Shown here: positions 10,032-31,063 of the stretch, one piece after another
How the letters are laid out: each line of letters opens with the position of its first letter
How positions within the stretch are numbered: the first letter of the stretch is position 1
Virus record (IMG/VR): IMGVR_UViG_3300050821_001577
Span: 1 to 60,471 of that record
Reading direction: 5' to 3' (one strand)
Length of the DNA stretch: 60,471 nt
DNA from: a virus
Position numbers and translations under genes: made by a program
The notes under the pieces: model-generated
Databases searched by the model: none
Seen by the model: the letters and a program-made list of their open reading frames with translations, nothing else
Told to the model about the DNA's origin: nothing

Positions 10032-10757
10032 TCAGACAAGCATTCCATTCAATCTTGCAAAATCTATAGGATCTTTGGCTTGTTTACGCAAGTTACAGGT
10101 TACGCAAGTGATTTGAATATTCGACCTATTGTTTGACCCACCTTTAGCTATCGGAATGATGTGGTCAACGTGATATTTCTTTCCCACTTTGATCCGACAA
10201 TAAGCACACTTACCCTTCTGTGCTTTCAAAATCCAGTTTAAATCATCTGCCGTATAGCTTCCACCAGCATTTCGCTGCTTGGCTCGCCGCTTCCCATGAT
10301 GCGATTTGTTTCTTTCTGGATTTTTTAAACGCCACAAACGCGACGCATTACGCTGCTTTTCTCGTATATGAGGATCAGCCAATCTCCGCTCTCTTTGCCG
10401 TGACGGCGACTGAGATGGAACATTTTTAGCTTTTTCTGGATTATTCATTCTCCAGGTTTTAAGAGATTCGCGTAACGAGGCTCTATTCTTCTTACGCCAT
10501 TCGCGTCTTTCATCAGTCTTATAGTTCTTCTTAGCCGATCTATTAGCAATAACCTTCCTACCTTCAGGATTTTCCTTATTCCATCTAGCCACAGCAATAT
10601 TAACGCACGCTATACACCGACCCAAACCATTAACATATCTTTCACTCAGATGGCCGTGACGACATGATTTTCCGGTAAAGAAGCGTTTTAATCCTAACTC
10701 GGTTGCATCTTTACGAGAAATGATCTTAAGATTGTCGGTAGCCAAATCGAACCTCAC
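10032..10757 (-). CDS. HNH endonuclease (zinc-binding McrA-like type)
   Basis: A 241-residue protein with GTG start. The N-terminal part (SCRHGHLSERYVNGLGRCIAC) is a small Cys/His metal site typical of phage HNH proteins; a lysine/arginine-rich helical middle follows; the catalytic HNH domain is C-terminal: KGKCAYCRIKV, YHVDHIIPIAKGGSNN, ITCVTCNLRK, i.e. two CxxC zinc ligands around the DH core. It belongs to a different subfamily from the AP2-type genes. It sits in an intergenic slot bounded by hairpins. Confidence 0.92.
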   Translation of the reverse strand: MRFDLATDNLKIISRKDATELGLKRFFTGKSCRHGHLSERYVNGLGRCIACVNIAVARWNKENPEGRKVIANRSAKKNYKTDERREWRKKNRASLRESLKTWRMNNPEKAKNVPSQSPSRQRERRLADPHIREKQRNASRLWRLKNPERNKSHHGKRRAKQRNAGGSYTADDLNWILKAQKGKCAYCRIKVGKKYHVDHIIPIAKGGSNNRSNIQITCVTCNLRKQAKDPIDFARLNGMLV

Positions 10758-10775
10758 CGTTCGTTGTGGTTAGAG

Positions 10776-10805
10776 GATTCCCCAGCGTTACAGCGCTGGG
10801 GAATC
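10776..10805. repeat. Perfect 12-bp stem hairpin between HNH gene and upstream gene
   Basis: Arms at 10776-10787 (GATTCCCCAGCG) and 10794-10805 are exact inverse complements around a 6-nt loop. There is no T-tract after it on the minus strand, so it is not a classical terminator. It may be an RNA-processing or stability element, or a relic of HNH insertion. Confidence 0.8.
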
Positions 10806-10813
10806 TTCGCTTA

Positions 10814-11032
10814 TTAAGCTTCAAGTCTCTTTCGCGCTTCTTGGCAAAGGAATATGGCGGTATCCAGACCTTCTATGACGCCGCGCCGCTTCTGGAAATC
10901 AGCCCAATCTTTAGCTGCGGTCAGGCCTTCAATACTTGACGCTTTGGATGCTTGCAGATCCCGCTCAAGATTGCGGGCGAGATTGGGATGGTCATCAATC
11001 TCAAATGCGACTGGCGAGGAATGGGCTGGCAT
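10814..11032 (-). CDS. Hypothetical protein (72 aa)
   Basis: Starts at the ATG overlapping the TAA of the 36-aa gene (TAATG at 11030-11034), which is preferred to the in-frame GTG 4 codons upstream. The product is helical and acidic (FEIDDHPNLARNLERDLQASKASSIEGLTAAKDWADFQ...) and may form a short coiled coil. It ends just before the 12-bp hairpin. Function unknown. Confidence 0.7.
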   Translation of the reverse strand: MPAHSSPVAFEIDDHPNLARNLERDLQASKASSIEGLTAAKDWADFQKRRGVIEGLDTAIFLCQEARKRLEA

Positions 11033-16783: not shown

Positions 16784-17067
16784 CAGAATGCCCTCACAAA
16801 ATACCATGCCAGATCAGCGGTAACCATCAGAAACCCTACGATGGTCCAGAAACCAAATACCTTCAGGTCAAACTGATCATGAGCGTTCTGAATGCTCCAA
16901 AACCTACCATCCCAATTCGGATCATGATCGAACCAGATATTTGTCGGCAACTCAGCGCTGCCATACATATTCCTGGTGACTTCTTCCCATCTCTGATCCG
17001 GCGTCCGATAAGGCTTGTCAGGCCTGACTTCGCCGGGGCGCGGGATGATGGTTTCGAGGTCCGTCAT
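16783..17067 (-). CDS. C-terminally anchored membrane protein
   Basis: A 94-residue protein with a soluble N-terminal part (about 1-65) and one C-terminal transmembrane helix (FGFWTIVGFLMVTADLAWYFV, 71-91). It starts just inside the end of terL (ATGA). Not recognised; such single-anchor proteins are scattered among the small genes of this genome. Confidence 0.7.
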   Translation of the reverse strand: MTDLETIIPRPGEVRPDKPYRTPDQRWEEVTRNMYGSAELPTNIWFDHDPNWDGRFWSIQNAHDQFDLKVFGFWTIVGFLMVTADLAWYFVRAF

Positions 17068-19781
17068 GCCGATCTCCTGCTGAAACCTGGATAGAGTGCC
17101 CGCTTAGGTGCCCCACGATGCCTCACCGCGTCCAACTCCTGTGCCCGGCGCTCCTCATCGCTGCGGATCAAACCGGTGTCGCGGAGATGCTTGATCGCCT
17201 GCGTCATCGAATCAAACAAATCATCATGAGTTCCGTAGGGGAAAAGCGCGCACTCATCAATGACCTTCCCAGCATAGTCGAATTCTTCTGGATCCGGCGC
17301 ATAAATCATCTCTTGAGAGAACGAAGGCACAATAGCCATGCCGCGGGCCATCTTATCTCCCTTGGGCTCAACAAGTTGGATCGTCCATCCTTGCCGTCCA
17401 TGGGCATTCCGCAGAGATTGAGCGGCAGATATGCCAGAAGCCTTTGACTCTATTAACAATTTGTCTGCTTTGAACCGATTGCAGCTATCCGCAACCCATT
17501 CGATCAGTCCCCAGAAAGGGCGCGCTCGGATCTTGTATGTCGATTCATGCTCGTTTGGCAGAATATCAATCTTGGGACCGGAAAACTCAAGCCGCTTTGA
17601 CCATGCATGGATCAGCATTGCCCGATTATAGCCATGCTCGTTCTGGAACACACCCCAGATCGTCAATGCAGATGGATCGTTCTTTTCTTCCTCAGTATAA
17701 GCGCCGTCTAGACTGGCCACGATATATTCAAACGGTGGGAACTTGCGACCAGTCATATAAATCTCGGCTGGCATCCACCACTCACGCTTAATCAGGCCAC
17801 CGCCACGAGCCTCTGGCGTCTGCTGGAGTTGGCTGGCAGTCGCATAGGGACCAAGTTCAATCTTGAGGCTTTGAACCGATCGTTCCGAGAAACGGTCAAT
17901 CCAAGCTAACTCACCCTCGCAATCATCTTGGTTCGCTCGCCACCGCGGATCAACCCAGCCAATCGAAGTTGTGTACGGCTCGCCATTGTCGTCTGCCTGC
18001 CACACATACTCCATTGGAATGCAGAGATGACAATATGGTAGCTGAAGCCGAAGGATCTCGCCGGAAACGTCTGCCTCACTGACACGCTGAGATATGACAA
18101 TCTTTGCATCGGTCTCCATGCTGTTCAGACGTGACGACAGAGATTCCCGAAACCAGCGGTTGGTTTCGTCCATGACCGCTTTGGATTCGCTCTCTTTCAC
18201 GTTATTTAAATCGTCGCAGTTGGAGCAAATTATGTTTGCACCATCTCCGCACAACATGTTATGGTTCCCCTCCACCGTGATGCAAAACGTTTCAGAGGGA
18301 ATTTCATGCAACAAATCGACAGAAACGACGCGAACGAAAGATGGCTTCCAGTAGTCGGGTTTGAAGGGATTTACGAGGTTTCCGACCTTGGCCGAGTTCG
18401 CAGCATGCCGCGCGTCGTGGTGCGGCGCAGACACTTGGCTATCCACAACGACAGAATCAGCCATGAGAAATGCGAACATGAGATGGTTAACTCTGGCAAG
18501 ATAATGACTGGCACGATTTGCGAAGGATATCCGCGCGTCTCGCTTCGCCGCGATGGCAAGACTTTCTATCGGATGTGCCACGTTTTGGTGGCCGCAGCAT
18601 TCTTGGGGCCGTGCCCCGAAGGCGAGGAGGTTCGCCATAAAGATGGTAATCGAGGCGATGCCAGTCTCAGCAATATCGAATATGGAACGCGGGCTCAGAA
18701 CATTGCCGATTGCAAAAGGCACGGAACATTTCGGAATGGCGCGTCGCATCTTACCGAGGACATGGTTCGCCAGATTGCGGCTCGCCATTACGAGACCGCT
18801 GCGGATCTTGGCAAAGAATTTGGGGTAAGCGGGGGCACCATCGCCGGCATCAGAAATCGGCGGATCTGGAAGCATTTGAACTTGGACTTGCTCCCGACCT
18901 ATCGCAGGAGCGGCGATCTCCACCCGGCTAGGCGCGGCAATAAGACGATGCCCGATTCGGATATCTGACGCAAACCTGTAGCCTTCATCGCCTAGAATGA
19001 GATGGTCCAAGGTGCAGGTCACGCTTGAACCATTCTCTAGTCCGACCCTAACCAAGTGGCGCCCCGGATTCGTATGCCAGCCAATGACCGGCTTGAGTTC
19101 TAATTTTCCGGTAGATCGATTGTATGACCAAACCGGCAAATCCATCCTGTTCTTGACAAACTTTCCGATGGCGATTGGCCCGATGGCGGTATCAATAAGT
19201 TGATCTGACGGAAAGCAGATGGCTCGGTTGCCGCGCTTACCAGTGACCGAGCCTGTAACCGAGCTCGCCAGCTTCCAGCCATGTTTCCGGTTGGAAACCA
19301 TCGTCATGCCGTTCTGGCGGATCGCGACATGGGGATACATGGCCTGATAATCGGTCGACGACACCAGATCGCCAAACCGCTGATTGTCGCGCTCGGTATT
19401 GCTGGAACTATACGAGAACGTCACGTACCGGAGATGGGCGAGGTCCATCGCCCCCCATTCCCATGCTGGCCAGAATACGTTGGTCAGCAGCGACTTCATC
19501 GCTCCAGGGAATACATTGATGAGGAGATTGGTTATTTCCCCGTAGGTGACCGCCTCAAGGTGCTCACAGATGGCCTCCAGAACCCACCCATCAACGAACG
19601 GCGTGCCAGGCTCCAGCACATGCCAGAAATACCGCACGAAGCTCAGCAAGCCACCCTGCCACACCCCGTCCTCATCTCGGTAGCCTCTGGTCTGATGCTC
19701 AGCCTTGGCTATCCTGCGGCGCTTCTCGGCTAATGCTGCGTTGAAGCGCTCAAGATCGGCACGGGGAATAGGCTTGTTCAT
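17064..19781 (-). CDS. terL: Terminase large subunit containing an intein
   Basis: A 905-residue precursor; after removal of a 333-residue intein the terminase is 572 residues, a normal size. N-extein: Walker A VFPGAMKSL (90-98, Lys97), the TGSVTGKRGNRAI stretch. The intein runs Cys189-Asn521 and Cys522 is the +1 residue, so splicing rebuilds the Walker B region RAI-CDDLNN (522-527). C-extein: nuclease motifs SLDGAY, LLIESKASG and the late DDLFDSMTQ. The enzyme translocates DNA through the portal and cuts it. The start ATG overlaps the small HTH gene (ATGA). The central part of the intein is antisense to an HNH gene at 18306. Confidence 0.93.
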   Translation of the reverse strand: MNKPIPRADLERFNAALAEKRRRIAKAEHQTRGYRDEDGVWQGGLLSFVRYFWHVLEPGTPFVDGWVLEAICEHLEAVTYGEITNLLINVFPGAMKSLLTNVFWPAWEWGAMDLAHLRYVTFSYSSSNTERDNQRFGDLVSSTDYQAMYPHVAIRQNGMTMVSNRKHGWKLASSVTGSVTGKRGNRAICFPSDQLIDTAIGPIAIGKFVKNRMDLPVWSYNRSTGKLELKPVIGWHTNPGRHLVRVGLENGSSVTCTLDHLILGDEGYRFASDIRIGHRLIAAPSRVEIAAPAIGREQVQVQMLPDPPISDAGDGAPAYPKFFAKIRSGLVMASRNLANHVLGKMRRAIPKCSVPFAIGNVLSPRSIFDIAETGIASITIFMANLLAFGARPQECCGHQNVAHPIESLAIAAKRDARISFANRASHYLARVNHLMFAFLMADSVVVDSQVSAPHHDARHAANSAKVGNLVNPFKPDYWKPSFVRVVSVDLLHEIPSETFCITVEGNHNMLCGDGANIICSNCDDLNNVKESESKAVMDETNRWFRESLSSRLNSMETDAKIVISQRVSEADVSGEILRLQLPYCHLCIPMEYVWQADDNGEPYTTSIGWVDPRWRANQDDCEGELAWIDRFSERSVQSLKIELGPYATASQLQQTPEARGGGLIKREWWMPAEIYMTGRKFPPFEYIVASLDGAYTEEEKNDPSALTIWGVFQNEHGYNRAMLIHAWSKRLEFSGPKIDILPNEHESTYKIRARPFWGLIEWVADSCNRFKADKLLIESKASGISAAQSLRNAHGRQGWTIQLVEPKGDKMARGMAIVPSFSQEMIYAPDPEEFDYAGKVIDECALFPYGTHDDLFDSMTQAIKHLRDTGLIRSDEERRAQELDAVRHRGAPKRALYPGFSRRSA
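18219..19217 (-). mobile_element. Intein coding segment within terL
   Basis: 999 bp coding residues 189-521 of the terL product. Block A: CFPSDQLIDTAIGPI beginning with the nucleophilic Cys189 (TGC at 19215-19217). Block B: GSSVTCTLDHLIL with the TxxH signature (Thr257, His260). Block F: VVSVDLLHEIPSETFCITVEG. Block G: ANIICSN ending in Asn521 (AAC at 18219-18221), then Cys522 of the extein. The residue before the terminal Asn is Ser instead of the usual His. No in-frame endonuclease motif (LAGLIDADG or HNH) is present; the middle ~200 residues are the reverse of the HNH gene on the other strand. Confidence 0.9.
18306..18968 (+). CDS. HNH endonuclease (NUMOD4) nested antisense inside the terL intein
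   Basis: A 220-residue protein read on the plus strand, wholly inside the intein. Start ATG at 18306, 6 nt after AGAGGG. Domains: NUMOD4 at about 12-33 (ERWLPVVGFEGIYEVSDLGR), HNH core (YRMCHVLVAAAFLG, then EEVRHKDGNRGDASLSNIEYGTRAQN, about 90-140), and a C-terminal helix-turn-helix (ETAADLGKEFGVSGGTIAGI). All expected domains are complete, so it is very probably functional, not a shadow. Codons lie exactly opposite terL codons, which forces the absence of TTA, CTA and TCA. It probably mobilises the intein or itself. Confidence 0.88.
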   Translation: MQQIDRNDANERWLPVVGFEGIYEVSDLGRVRSMPRVVVRRRHLAIHNDRISHEKCEHEMVNSGKIMTGTICEGYPRVSLRRDGKTFYRMCHVLVAAAFLGPCPEGEEVRHKDGNRGDASLSNIEYGTRAQNIADCKRHGTFRNGASHLTEDMVRQIAARHYETAADLGKEFGVSGGTIAGIRNRRIWKHLNLDLLPTYRRSGDLHPARRGNKTMPDSDI

Positions 19782-27656: not shown

Positions 27657-27680
27657 TGCTAAGCCTCTTACTTGCCTATC

Positions 27681-27711
27681 AAAAATCGGTCATTTGCCTC
27701 TTGGCAAATGA
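27681..27711 (-). terminator. Intrinsic terminator at the end of the gene-free region
   Basis: On the minus strand a 9-bp perfect stem (TCATTTGCC 27703-27711 with GGCAAATGA 27690-27698, 4-nt loop) is followed 4 nt later by TTTTT (27681-27685). It closes the 504-bp stretch without a confident gene. Confidence 0.75.
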
Positions 27712-28105
27712 TCCCGAGCAGAGGAACACCACCTACAGACAGAATTCCGGCGTCGGAACCTGATCGGGGAGTATCGTTTCGGGGTCGCTCTGTCGAAACA
27801 CTCCGTGCTCCATGCGGCGGCGGATCGAACGCCCCAGATCAGGCTAAGGCGCCGTTCGTGCTGGTCAGCGTACTGCCAGTGTCCAATAGTTAAGTGATTT
27901 GGCTAGGTTATCCCGCAACAACCCTGACTAGGCTCGCAGGACCTACCCCGACAGACGGGATGGCCTATGGAACCGATGCTGCTTTGCGGGGTTTAGACGG
28001 GGGTTGACGAAAGGCGAGATATTGCCTAAATCAATCCACATCCGACCGCCGCCAAGCATATCGGATATTCTTAAGTCCGGCTCCAGGGAAACCCCCTCGG
28101 AGCCG
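27681..28105 (-). ncRNA. Candidate structured non-coding RNA (~425 nt)
   Basis: The stretch 27657-28160 (504 bp) holds no confident gene, unusual in this packed genome. On the minus strand it has TTGACT-N18-TACAAA (28136-28141 and 28112-28117) at the start and the terminator at 27681-27711 at the end. Within lie strong pairings: CCTGATC+GGGG (27759-27769) with CCCC+GATCAGG (27832-27843), enclosing a GTTTCG/CGAAAC plus GGAGT/ACTCC hairpin, and a CGGCTCC/GGAGCCG hairpin near 28080-28104. Two weak short reading frames also exist (e.g. 28065 downward, MLGGGRMWIDLGN), so a decayed gene is the alternative. Confidence 0.45.
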
Positions 28106-28111
28106 TCGACT

Positions 28112-28141
28112 TTTGTACGCCTGACTCTTGAACGGAGTCAA
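28112..28141 (-). promoter_or_regulatory. Possible promoter of the candidate ncRNA
   Basis: Minus-strand TTGACT (28136-28141), 18-nt spacer, TACAAA (28112-28117), located about 20 nt after the stop of the adenine methyltransferase. Good -35, fair -10. It lacks the CGTAAACCA box of promoters A-C. Confidence 0.4.
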
Positions 28142-28160
28142 TGGCTACCGGTAGACAAGT

Positions 28161-28822: not shown

Positions 28823-29368
28823 TTAATAGGAAACATTATTCGCCATTTTTCGGTGTGCAATCAGGTGCCGATCGCCGTACCGAGCCATGAGGATCGCCTC
28901 AGCGCGTCCATCATCTTTCTTGCGCCGGAGCCAATGCGCGGCCTCTGGATGAAGCTCTAATGCCTTCTGCCGGCTCTGCTCCTTGTCGGCGCCCTTGAGA
29001 TCATAAAACCGCTTCCAGACCTGAGGATGGATAAGCGATATCGGCACACCACAGCAAGCGATCGTGGCTCGGATCTGCCCGACGACCAGGCCGAATCGAA
29101 ACGTTGTCGCAGCTCCCATCGTCCGGCGTTTTCCGTGCTTATCCGGTATCGATGGCATTGGCTGCACGTTCTCCACAAACGCATGAACTGGCTGCATTTT
29201 CCGCACCCATGCGACAAATCGTAGCACGTCAATCTCGCGGCGCGCGCCGTCGTCAATTGCTGGCAAATCAATCACGTCGGCGATGAATTCAGGACCTTCA
29301 GCATCGGCGCGATAGAAGGCGCATGCGGCCCCAGAAATGCCGGGGTCTGCTGCTATGATTACGGTCAC
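28823..29368 (-). CDS. RuvC-like Holliday junction resolvase
   Basis: A 181-residue RNase H-fold nuclease: first strand TVIIAADPGISGAACAF with Asp8, second acidic residue in VHAFVENVQ (Glu66), and the C-terminal catalytic pair in KKDDGRAEAILMARYG (Asp152/153, Glu157). Length fits RuvC-like phage resolvases. It would cleave branched DNA during replication/recombination and before packaging. It follows the 56-aa gene at 29375. Confidence 0.9.
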   Translation of the reverse strand: MTVIIAADPGISGAACAFYRADAEGPEFIADVIDLPAIDDGARREIDVLRFVAWVRKMQPVHAFVENVQPMPSIPDKHGKRRTMGAATTFRFGLVVGQIRATIACCGVPISLIHPQVWKRFYDLKGADKEQSRQKALELHPEAAHWLRRKKDDGRAEAILMARYGDRHLIAHRKMANNVSY

Positions 29369-29374
29369 AGGGAC

Positions 29375-29545
29375 CTAATCATAGATGCATTTTCCCTCGC
29401 GGAAATCCTTGGCCCATTGGATTTCCGACTTGATGTAGCTATCGCGCTGTTGTCGAAGCATCAGCTCCTGTTTATCCGGTGGCAATGCATCAAATCTCGC
29501 CCTTGCCTCACGTGCTAATTCCATTAGTGATTTGGTGGGTTCCAT
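29375..29545 (-). CDS. Small protein upstream of resolvase (56 aa)
   Basis: An acidic/basic helical protein (MEPTKSLMELAREARARFDA...QRDSYIKSEIQWAKDFREGK). It stops with TAG 6 bp before the resolvase ATG; the use of TAG here argues against amber recoding in this phage. The Shine-Dalgarno is weak (GGGAAAAGATAG). Function unknown. Confidence 0.65.
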   Translation of the reverse strand: MEPTKSLMELAREARARFDALPPDKQELMLRQQRDSYIKSEIQWAKDFREGKCIYD

Positions 29546-29596
29546 CTATCTTTTCCCGATTTATTAAGTAAAGTGTTGTACAGATCGCTGGATATA

Positions 29597-29724
29597 GGGC
29601 GTTAGATAACCAGCCCCGCCTAGGTAACTAGGACCATCCGAACGGATGGACAGCCCTCACGGGCAAAGAGGTTCGCCCCGAGACACTCAGGTGTCGCACA
29701 GGCCCGAAAGGGCCTGTTTCTATT
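29597..29724 (+). ncRNA. Array of short tetraloop hairpins ending in terminator-like hairpin
   Basis: Plus-strand hairpins in a row, all with 4-nt loops: CCTAG-GTAA-CTAGG (29619-29632), CCATCC-GAAC-GGATGG (29634-29649), GCCC-TCAC-GGGC (29653-29664), GACAC-TCAG-GTGTC (29682-29695), CAGGCCC-GAAA-GGGCCTG (29699-29716), then TTTCTATT. GGGCG (29597-29601) can pair with CGCCC (29674-29678), closing the first three hairpins into a cloverleaf. GNRA-type loops (GTAA, GAAA) favour the plus strand as the RNA. It could also be a structured DNA site such as an origin. Confidence 0.55.
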
Positions 29725-29741: not shown

Positions 29742-29903
29742 TCACATTCCGATAGTGTGGATCACTTCAACGCATCGGCCGCAGAAAAGCATGGCATCCG
29801 ATTGGCAATAAACGCCTTTCCGACCACAGGAATTAACCAACGCCGTGACGCGCCGCCATTCATCCGCCATCACAACAACCCACATATTGGTCTGAACAAC
29901 CAT
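29742..29903 (-). CDS. Small cysteine-containing protein (53 aa)
   Basis: Starts 2 nt after the stop of the gene at 29906; an internal ATG at 29870 would give 42 residues. The product ends with a possible zinc module (NSCGRKGVYCQSDAMLFCGRC). No Shine-Dalgarno is visible, so translation would depend on coupling. Function unknown. Confidence 0.5.
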   Translation of the reverse strand: MVVQTNMWVVVMADEWRRVTALVNSCGRKGVYCQSDAMLFCGRCVEVIHTIGM

Positions 29904-29905
29904 GA

Positions 29906-30772
29906 TCAATGTTTCGTGCTAGCAGCCTTCGCCGCTTCCTGCATCTCCTTGAACTGCTTCCGAGATAGCGGTGTGCCGGAGGATGGCGTCGGAGTTGACG
30001 TATTCAGACCTTCGGCGATCGAAGCAACGGCTTCCTTGTCAAATCCAGCCTTTTCCTTGTCAAAATCGCCAAACGCCTTGGCATCGCGTGCCTTGAGCGC
30101 GTCCATCTCGGCCTTGTGTTCTTCCTGCGCCTTCAGATCGGCTTCGACCTCAGGATGCAGGGTGCCCATGCCTTCCTTGATCCGGCGCTCGGAAACGGAA
30201 TGGAAACCATCGAGATACCGGCGGTAGGCTTCGGTTGACGGATCATAAGAAGGTCGCGCCGGAATGTTCTGCATCACGTCCGATTCGCCTTCCTCAAATG
30301 CGCGGTCGGAAAGCGAGGTACGGTCAGGCATCAGGAACATATCGAGTTGGTTGCCTAGCGAGGAGCCGCACATCTTGGCGACCTTCAGCTTGCGGGCGAT
30401 TGCCGCGCGTTCCTTGGCCTCTTTCTCGGCCGTTTCCAGAGCGAAAGCGGTATCAAAGTCAGCCTTCGTGAAGCCGCCCTGCGCTTTTGCCGATTTGTAT
30501 TTATTACGCAGGTTTGAATTGGCCGTGGCTAGTGCTTCCCGCAGCATTTTCACCTCTGGCTTGAACTGGAGAAAAAGCGCTTTCTCCTCTTGATCGTATT
30601 CAGGATTGACGCCACGAGGCGCCGCAGTGGCCTTGGGAGCATCCGTGGTCGGTTTTCCGACTGCGGCCCTCGCCTCAGCCCGATCGGCCGCCGCTGGCGC
30701 CCCAGCCTTCGCAGCCTCACGCGCGGCCTTGGCATCGGCTTTCTGTTGTTCCGTCATTTTCGGTCTGGCCAT
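29906..30772 (-). CDS. Hypothetical Ala/Lys/Glu-rich protein, possibly GapR-like
   Basis: A 288-residue protein starting at the second of two adjacent ATGs (GAGGAG 5 nt upstream). N-terminal ~55 residues are low-complexity Ala-rich; a helical middle (EEKALFLQFKPEVKMLREAL ... LRNKYKSAKAQGGFTKADFD) loosely recalls GapR/DUF2312 DNA-binding helices; a LGNQLDMFLMPDRTSLSDRA motif follows; the C-terminus is a charged coiled coil with a Thr/Ser/Pro tail. Second gene of the leftward early transcript. Function uncertain. Confidence 0.65.
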   Translation of the reverse strand: MARPKMTEQQKADAKAAREAAKAGAPAAADRAEARAAVGKPTTDAPKATAAPRGVNPEYDQEEKALFLQFKPEVKMLREALATANSNLRNKYKSAKAQGGFTKADFDTAFALETAEKEAKERAAIARKLKVAKMCGSSLGNQLDMFLMPDRTSLSDRAFEEGESDVMQNIPARPSYDPSTEAYRRYLDGFHSVSERRIKEGMGTLHPEVEADLKAQEEHKAEMDALKARDAKAFGDFDKEKAGFDKEAVASIAEGLNTSTPTPSSGTPLSRKQFKEMQEAAKAASTKH

Positions 30773-30781
30773 CATGGCTCC

Positions 30782-31015
30782 TCAGGTTTGATTTTTGGGG
30801 CAGAATGGATTCTGGCAGTCTTCGCATGGGTCGGGAAGCAATTCTTCGGCCGGAATACCGGTTTTGAGAGCAATCATCAAAACCCGATTTGGCGGTATCG
30901 CGTCCCACTTGGTTAAGGCTTGGCGACTGACTTCCGCCATGGCCGCTACATCGGCTTTTGAGTGATTTTTCAATAGCTTATGGTAAGCCAATTGATTTTT
31001 TGAGAGCTTTGTCAT
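30782..31015 (-). CDS. Cro/CI-type helix-turn-helix regulator
   Basis: A 77-residue protein with a Cro-like HTH: HSKADVAAMAEVSRQALTKWDAIPPNRVLMIALKTGIPAEELLPD (about 18-62). The C-terminus has three cysteines in CEDCQNPFC that might bind metal. It is the first gene left of the divergent promoter, the classic place for a regulator that controls the early switch. Start at MTKLSKNQ; the in-frame ATG 6 codons upstream is unlikely. Confidence 0.82.
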   Translation of the reverse strand: MTKLSKNQLAYHKLLKNHSKADVAAMAEVSRQALTKWDAIPPNRVLMIALKTGIPAEELLPDPCEDCQNPFCPKNQT

Positions 31016-31019
31016 GTTG

Positions 31020-31050
31020 ACTGAATGGCACAAATCGATTTATCTGTCAA
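31020..31050 (-). promoter_or_regulatory. Leftward early promoter
   Basis: Minus-strand TTGACA (31045-31050) upstream of the Cro-like gene, with a weak -10 (CATTCA at N17). It is the left half of a back-to-back pair with the rightward promoter. Confidence 0.5.
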
Positions 31051-31063
31051 TATGTGGTTGACA
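31045..31063. promoter_or_regulatory. Palindromic operator spanning divergent -35 boxes
   Basis: TGTCAA (31045-31050), 7-nt TATGTGG, TTGACA (31058-31063): a perfect inverted repeat in which each arm is also a -35 hexamer, one pointing left and one right. A dimeric regulator, probably the adjacent Cro-like protein, could block both promoters at once. Confidence 0.6.

Follow-up and report, generated by a model that had tools for sequence, protein, structure and literature searches.

ColE1-type RNAI is a multi-hairpin antisense RNA of ~100 to 130 nt in which several stem-loops are followed by a terminator; it is antisense to a longer transcript, has loops larger than those described below, and targets a replication primer. 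The OOP RNA of phage lambda is short, lies opposite the cII message, and ends at the tO hairpin (PMC5869508). How does a compact array of hairpins in an uncultured, soil-type phage compare with these systems? The array occupies an intergenic element of 128 bases (29597-29724) in IMG/VR virus record IMGVR_UViG_3300050821_001577, whose full length (positions 1 to 60,471; 60,471 bases) is the window analyzed here. With ColE1-type RNAI, the RNA predicted from this element shares its size, its several stem-loops followed by a terminator, and its antisense orientation to a longer transcript, whereas its loops are of 4 nt and no primer is known. With lambda OOP it shares, again as a prediction, the plan of a short RNA opposite an operon message, in an early/replication gene block, with a hairpin terminator (PMC5869508). 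Unlike OOP, for which a promoter (pO) is predicted and which covers the end of cII, the element overlaps no open reading frame (ORF) of the neighboring operon and lacks a recognizable promoter; it is also more structured, and its sequence is unrelated. We read it as the gene of a plus-strand small RNA of ~125 to 135 nt that would end at an intrinsic terminator and lie antisense to the leftward operon—a reading that we hold with about as much belief as doubt.

Is the array more than a chance arrangement of inverted repeats? A hairpin scan of the element bore out the original prediction of five perfect Watson-Crick hairpins with 4-nt loops; the array is as compact as had been claimed, though it spans 99 nt (29619-29717) rather than 98 bp. 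On the plus strand these are P2 (29619-29632; 5 bp, GNRA loop GTAA), P3 (29634-29649; 6 bp, loop GAAC), P4 (29653-29664; 4 bp, loop TCAC), P5 (29682-29695; 5 bp, loop TCAG), and the terminator-like hairpin Pt, ACAGGCCC-GAAA-GGGCCTGT followed by TTCTATT (29698-29724; hairpin 29698-29717, -15.9 kcal/mol). The stem of Pt, earlier described as a terminator-like stem of 7 bp, does resemble a terminator and measures 8 bp when its outer A-T pair is counted. A closing helix, P1, can form between GGGCG (29597-29601), continued by AACC (29608-29611), and CGCCC (29674-29678), preceded by GGTT (29670-29673); GGGCG/CGCCC is thus able to close three hairpins, as had been proposed, namely P2-P4. The plus-strand element has a minimum free energy of -57.3 kcal/mol (z -5.0), which none of 200 shuffles equaled, and minus-strand folding also departs from shuffles (z -3.3). 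Hairpin density reaches 5 hairpins and 28 stem bp per 100 nt, compared with at most 3 and 15 elsewhere in the window, and among 200 windows simulated with a second-order Markov model five hairpins occurred in one and 28 stem bp in none. The five-hairpin array is well beyond chance. Strong folding as such also occurs elsewhere in the window (10689 plus, 27937 on both strands, 6241 minus), with z equal to or lower than that of the element; the strongest signal (z ~-6.2) is at 10689-10850, plus, around the end of a leftward gene (10032-10757).

On which strand would the structure form? All seven helices are purely Watson-Crick, so G-U pairs are uninformative on this point, and we compared ensemble pairing probabilities under five different flank choices. 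P2, P3, and P4 kept probabilities of 0.87-1.0 on the plus strand under every choice (0.98-1.0, 1.0, and 0.87-1.0, respectively) and had 0.02-0.78 on the minus strand (0.05-0.78, 0.22-0.76, and 0.02-0.34), while P5 and Pt were kept on the minus strand too. Two GNRA loops occur on the plus strand, GTAA and GAAA—the number originally noted—vs. one on the minus strand (GTGA), and a U-rich tail follows the last stem on the plus strand only. In these models the array folds robustly only as a plus-strand RNA. A lax terminator scan found no more sites in the window than in shuffles, and a stricter scan of all 60 kb (stem of at least 6 bp, -8 kcal/mol or lower, U-rich tail) returned 8 terminator-like sites, of which Pt is the most stable. 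The U-tract of this putative terminator is interrupted (UUUCUAUU). We found no convincing plus-strand gene close upstream of the element that would otherwise need a terminator. Judged on sequence, then, the predicted RNA would end as OOP does, at an intrinsic terminator (Pt with TTCTATT), and it would be encoded opposite its target message, the neighboring genes all being minus and the hairpins favoring plus.

The closing helix was more sensitive to context. Its pairing probability was 0.95 for RNAs starting at 29592-29597 and ending at 29722, 0.27-0.41 for starts at 29585-29590, and 0.03 when the transcript extended 20 nt beyond the terminator. Because P1 depends on the transcript ends in this way, the modeled string of hairpins is secure for a plus-strand RNA, and the closed cloverleaf is conditional.

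What surrounds the element? The structural proteins of this phage match those of podovirus-like phages from metagenomes and alphaproteobacterial hosts, and the relatives of its terminase come mainly from Rhizobiales genomes. The large terminase subunit itself (905 aa; 17064-19781, minus) is matched by relatives in two blocks only (~45-190 and 520-880). Between these, at 213-511, Pfam gives a weak intein-splicing match that falls below its cut-off; on this pattern the subunit probably carries an intein at 213-511. Near the element, genes run leftward (minus) left of ~31.0 kb and rightward (plus) right of it. At 31058 (plus), TTGACA-N17-TACAGA, among the window's best TTGAC/TACAAA-type promoters, lies at the start of the rightward operon, opposite an HTH gene (30782-31033).

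The leftward operon reads p289, 55-aa ORF, element, 56-aa ORF, RuvC. The 289-aa protein p289 (29906-30775, minus) is encoded directly ahead of a resolvase-type gene in many related phages; here the 55-aa ORF (29742-29909, minus), for which we found no relatives in phage records, adjoins the element upstream in the minus sense. Downstream in that sense are the 56-aa ORF (29375-29545, minus), which adjoins the element, has an RBS-like GGGAAAAG, and has 11 relatives in viral contigs, and a RuvC-like Holliday junction resolvase (28823-29368, minus; PHROG 1770). The element almost exactly fills the 196-bp gap between the two small ORFs. The location first described, between the resolvase region and the 289-aa gene, is correct, but no domain match supports the label "GapR-like" given to that gene, as p289 had no significant match in Pfam. 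Related phages commonly carry p289 directly before an ORF of 150-210 aa, which where checked is a Holliday junction resolvase (RuvC-like in locus L002 and, by inspection, RusA-like in genome G408). The pair of p289 (29906-30775, minus, in the window) and a Holliday junction resolvase appears conserved across loci L153-L180, with the resolvase type (RuvC or RusA) swapped. Within p289 the conserved part is middle to C-terminal (DRAF/Y-x-EG...P-x-YDPST...GFH/GYH).

How widespread is the element? Rfam gave no match at gathering score across the whole window and nothing relevant near the element at E ≤ 10; blastn of the element in phages and plasmids gave no match; ARAGORN found no tRNA or tmRNA gene in the window; and neither covariance-model (CM) nor DNA searches of ~980 alphaproteobacterial genomes (in overlapping draws) found a homolog. 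Weak CM matches in two genomes (E 0.03) and short DNA matches of 19-24 nt (E 0.005-0.01) were treated as chance. The CCATCCGAACGGATGG pattern had 13 matches in viral contigs; the remainder of the element accompanied none of them, and most looked coding-like by inspection. The single-sequence covariance model, R1, is a weak probe that divergent homologs may escape but that a near copy would show. CM search and inspection likewise revealed no equivalent element in the loci of relatives of the 56-aa protein (11), RuvC (1), and p289 (28). The nearest relative that has this region is G408. Its p289 DNA is 80% identical, and what comes next, ahead of a RusA-like gene, is 305 nt of sequence without relation to the window; the 55-aa ORF, 56-aa ORF, RuvC, and element are all missing from it, and an unfiltered covariance search of G408 found no element. 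The whole stretch between p289 and a conserved RNA near 28.1 kb is replaced there. The locus with the closest RuvC (57%), L002, has p289 abutting RuvC. We take the element to be part of an exchangeable module and confined to this phage or its closest kin. As no homolog turned up in any collection searched, covariation cannot be drawn on for the element, and the conservation of pairing in relatives by which the original prediction was to be judged speaks neither for nor against it. Separately, five relatives (L158, L166, L168, L169, and L170) have a GC-rich, terminator-like hairpin between p289 and the resolvase; it is gene-sense, whereas Pt in the window's element points the other way.

Where might transcription begin? 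A plus-strand promoter would need to lie in the A+T-rich stretch at 29547-29596, which is at the same time the minus-sense 5' leader of the 56-aa ORF. This stretch contains no sigma70-like promoter within the usual limits, and its best TTGAC/TACAAA-type score is only 8 of 12; we found no convincing promoter for the element on either strand. Its promoter may be phage- or activator-dependent. Duplex prediction against 24 translation starts gave no significant target (best z -2.3).

The conserved RNA mentioned above, R2 (27657-28160, minus; promoter 28141-28112), lies ~1.5 kb from the element in the same operon region of the same phage and is likewise intergenic, structured, and without an Rfam match. 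It differs in lying on the other strand, in having a conserved promoter, and in occurring in about ten phage records carrying p289; the element shows no similarity to it above shuffles. Positions 27970-28117 align with G408 and G413, and the structured consensus of these three sequences has compensatory changes at 9 of 46 predicted pairs. The R2 model matches further p289-type phages (E ~1e-14 to 1e-4), with copies at L138:18698-18866, L143:10917-11088, L167:4089, L166:3660, L002:4089, L170:5347, and L158:4655 and in L188 and L192; in the loci read, R2 is downstream of p289 and its resolvase-type gene. Read in the gene sense (minus), every extended copy starts with TTGACN-N17/18-TACAAA or a near match to it; next come a GC-rich hairpin and a domain that is closed by CCGAT/ATCGG in most copies and has a conserved UUGAUUUAGG...CGUCAAC core. 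The window's own R2 promoter (TTGACT at 28141, TACAAA at 28117) is the best of its type in the whole window. Similarity between the window and L167 extends ~450 nt to a U-run hairpin upstream of a small gene, and in L170 and L158 the R2 5' domain closely precedes an ATG-initiated reading frame. We rejected R2 as a plus-strand RNA with a TTTTGT terminator, since TTTTGT is the reverse complement of the conserved -10 box. Its features suggest that R2 is a conserved leader or a long RNA driven by a strong early promoter, and one testable idea is that its 5' domain is a terminator-suppressing leader. With a shared promoter, a structured 5' domain, and no Rfam entry, R2 is likely the more general discovery of the two.

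How else might the array be explained? It could work not as a separate RNA but within the minus-strand operon mRNA, where a structure lying between cistrons or in the 5' leader ahead of the 56-aa gene and RuvC would serve as a decay barrier or processing site. The flanking genes are all minus, the ribosome-binding site of the 56-aa gene follows closely downstream of the element, and the minus strand, too, folds better than shuffles (z -3.3) and keeps P5 and Pt. We nevertheless find this role doubtful: P2-P4 are unstable in the minus sense, which has neither U-tract nor promoter, and in relatives both the region ahead of the 56-aa gene and the gap between p289 and the resolvase lack such an element. 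That the array is a functionless relic—recently acquired, structured DNA in an exchangeable module, with no present role—seems to us improbable, even though it occurs in one phage only and the nearest relative has a RusA-like gene for RuvC and no 55- or 56-aa genes; seven perfect, mismatch-free helices are unlikely without selection unless acquisition was very recent, and phage genomes are compact.

Two further readings merit little credence. A DNA-level element, whether a set of protein-bound inverted repeats or a structured single-strand origin, would fit the density of short inverted repeats and the resolvase and replication-type genes nearby, but we regard it as very improbable. The repeats differ in sequence from one another, giving no repeated operator; at the element the cumulative GC skew shows no extremum, and its local turn at 30-32 kb coincides with the change in gene direction; and close relatives, which must replicate too, lack the element, so that neither a skew switch nor conservation with the replication module marks an origin here. 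The structured origin suggested in the original prediction gets no support from the skew, and the ribozyme-like element finds no counterpart in Rfam; its third suggestion, a plus-strand small RNA, is favored by the strand bias of the hairpins, the GNRA loops, and the direction of the terminator-like stem, though no homologs were found. The slimmest chance of all goes to a plus-strand RNA that founds a new class of compact multi-hairpin phage RNAs, adopting the closed cloverleaf and working in trans, with a host or phage protein as its target, instead of through antisense pairing.

The antisense small RNA reading has its main weaknesses in the missing promoter and homologs. Under it, the transcription, start, target, and effect that we infer are as follows. 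The plus-strand RNA would begin near 29590-29597 and stop at the intrinsic terminator near 29722, and its compact hairpins would give it stability. Because this RNA would lie opposite the operon message, cis-antisense control is the simplest mechanism. The tetraloops would be the first to touch the operon mRNA, in its complementary stretch between cistrons, and the resulting duplex might then be cut or exert polarity on the 56-aa gene and resolvase downstream; this route, from hairpin-initiated pairing to cleavage or polarity, is proposed by analogy with lambda OOP.

If transcribed, the element would be an unlisted antisense RNA. The early operon that carries it comes from a group of uncultured phages with kin among Rhizobiales phages and prophages, where little work has been done on phage RNAs. 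Given that close relatives lack it, a transcribed element would also illustrate how a regulatory RNA can be carried in an exchangeable module of recombination genes.
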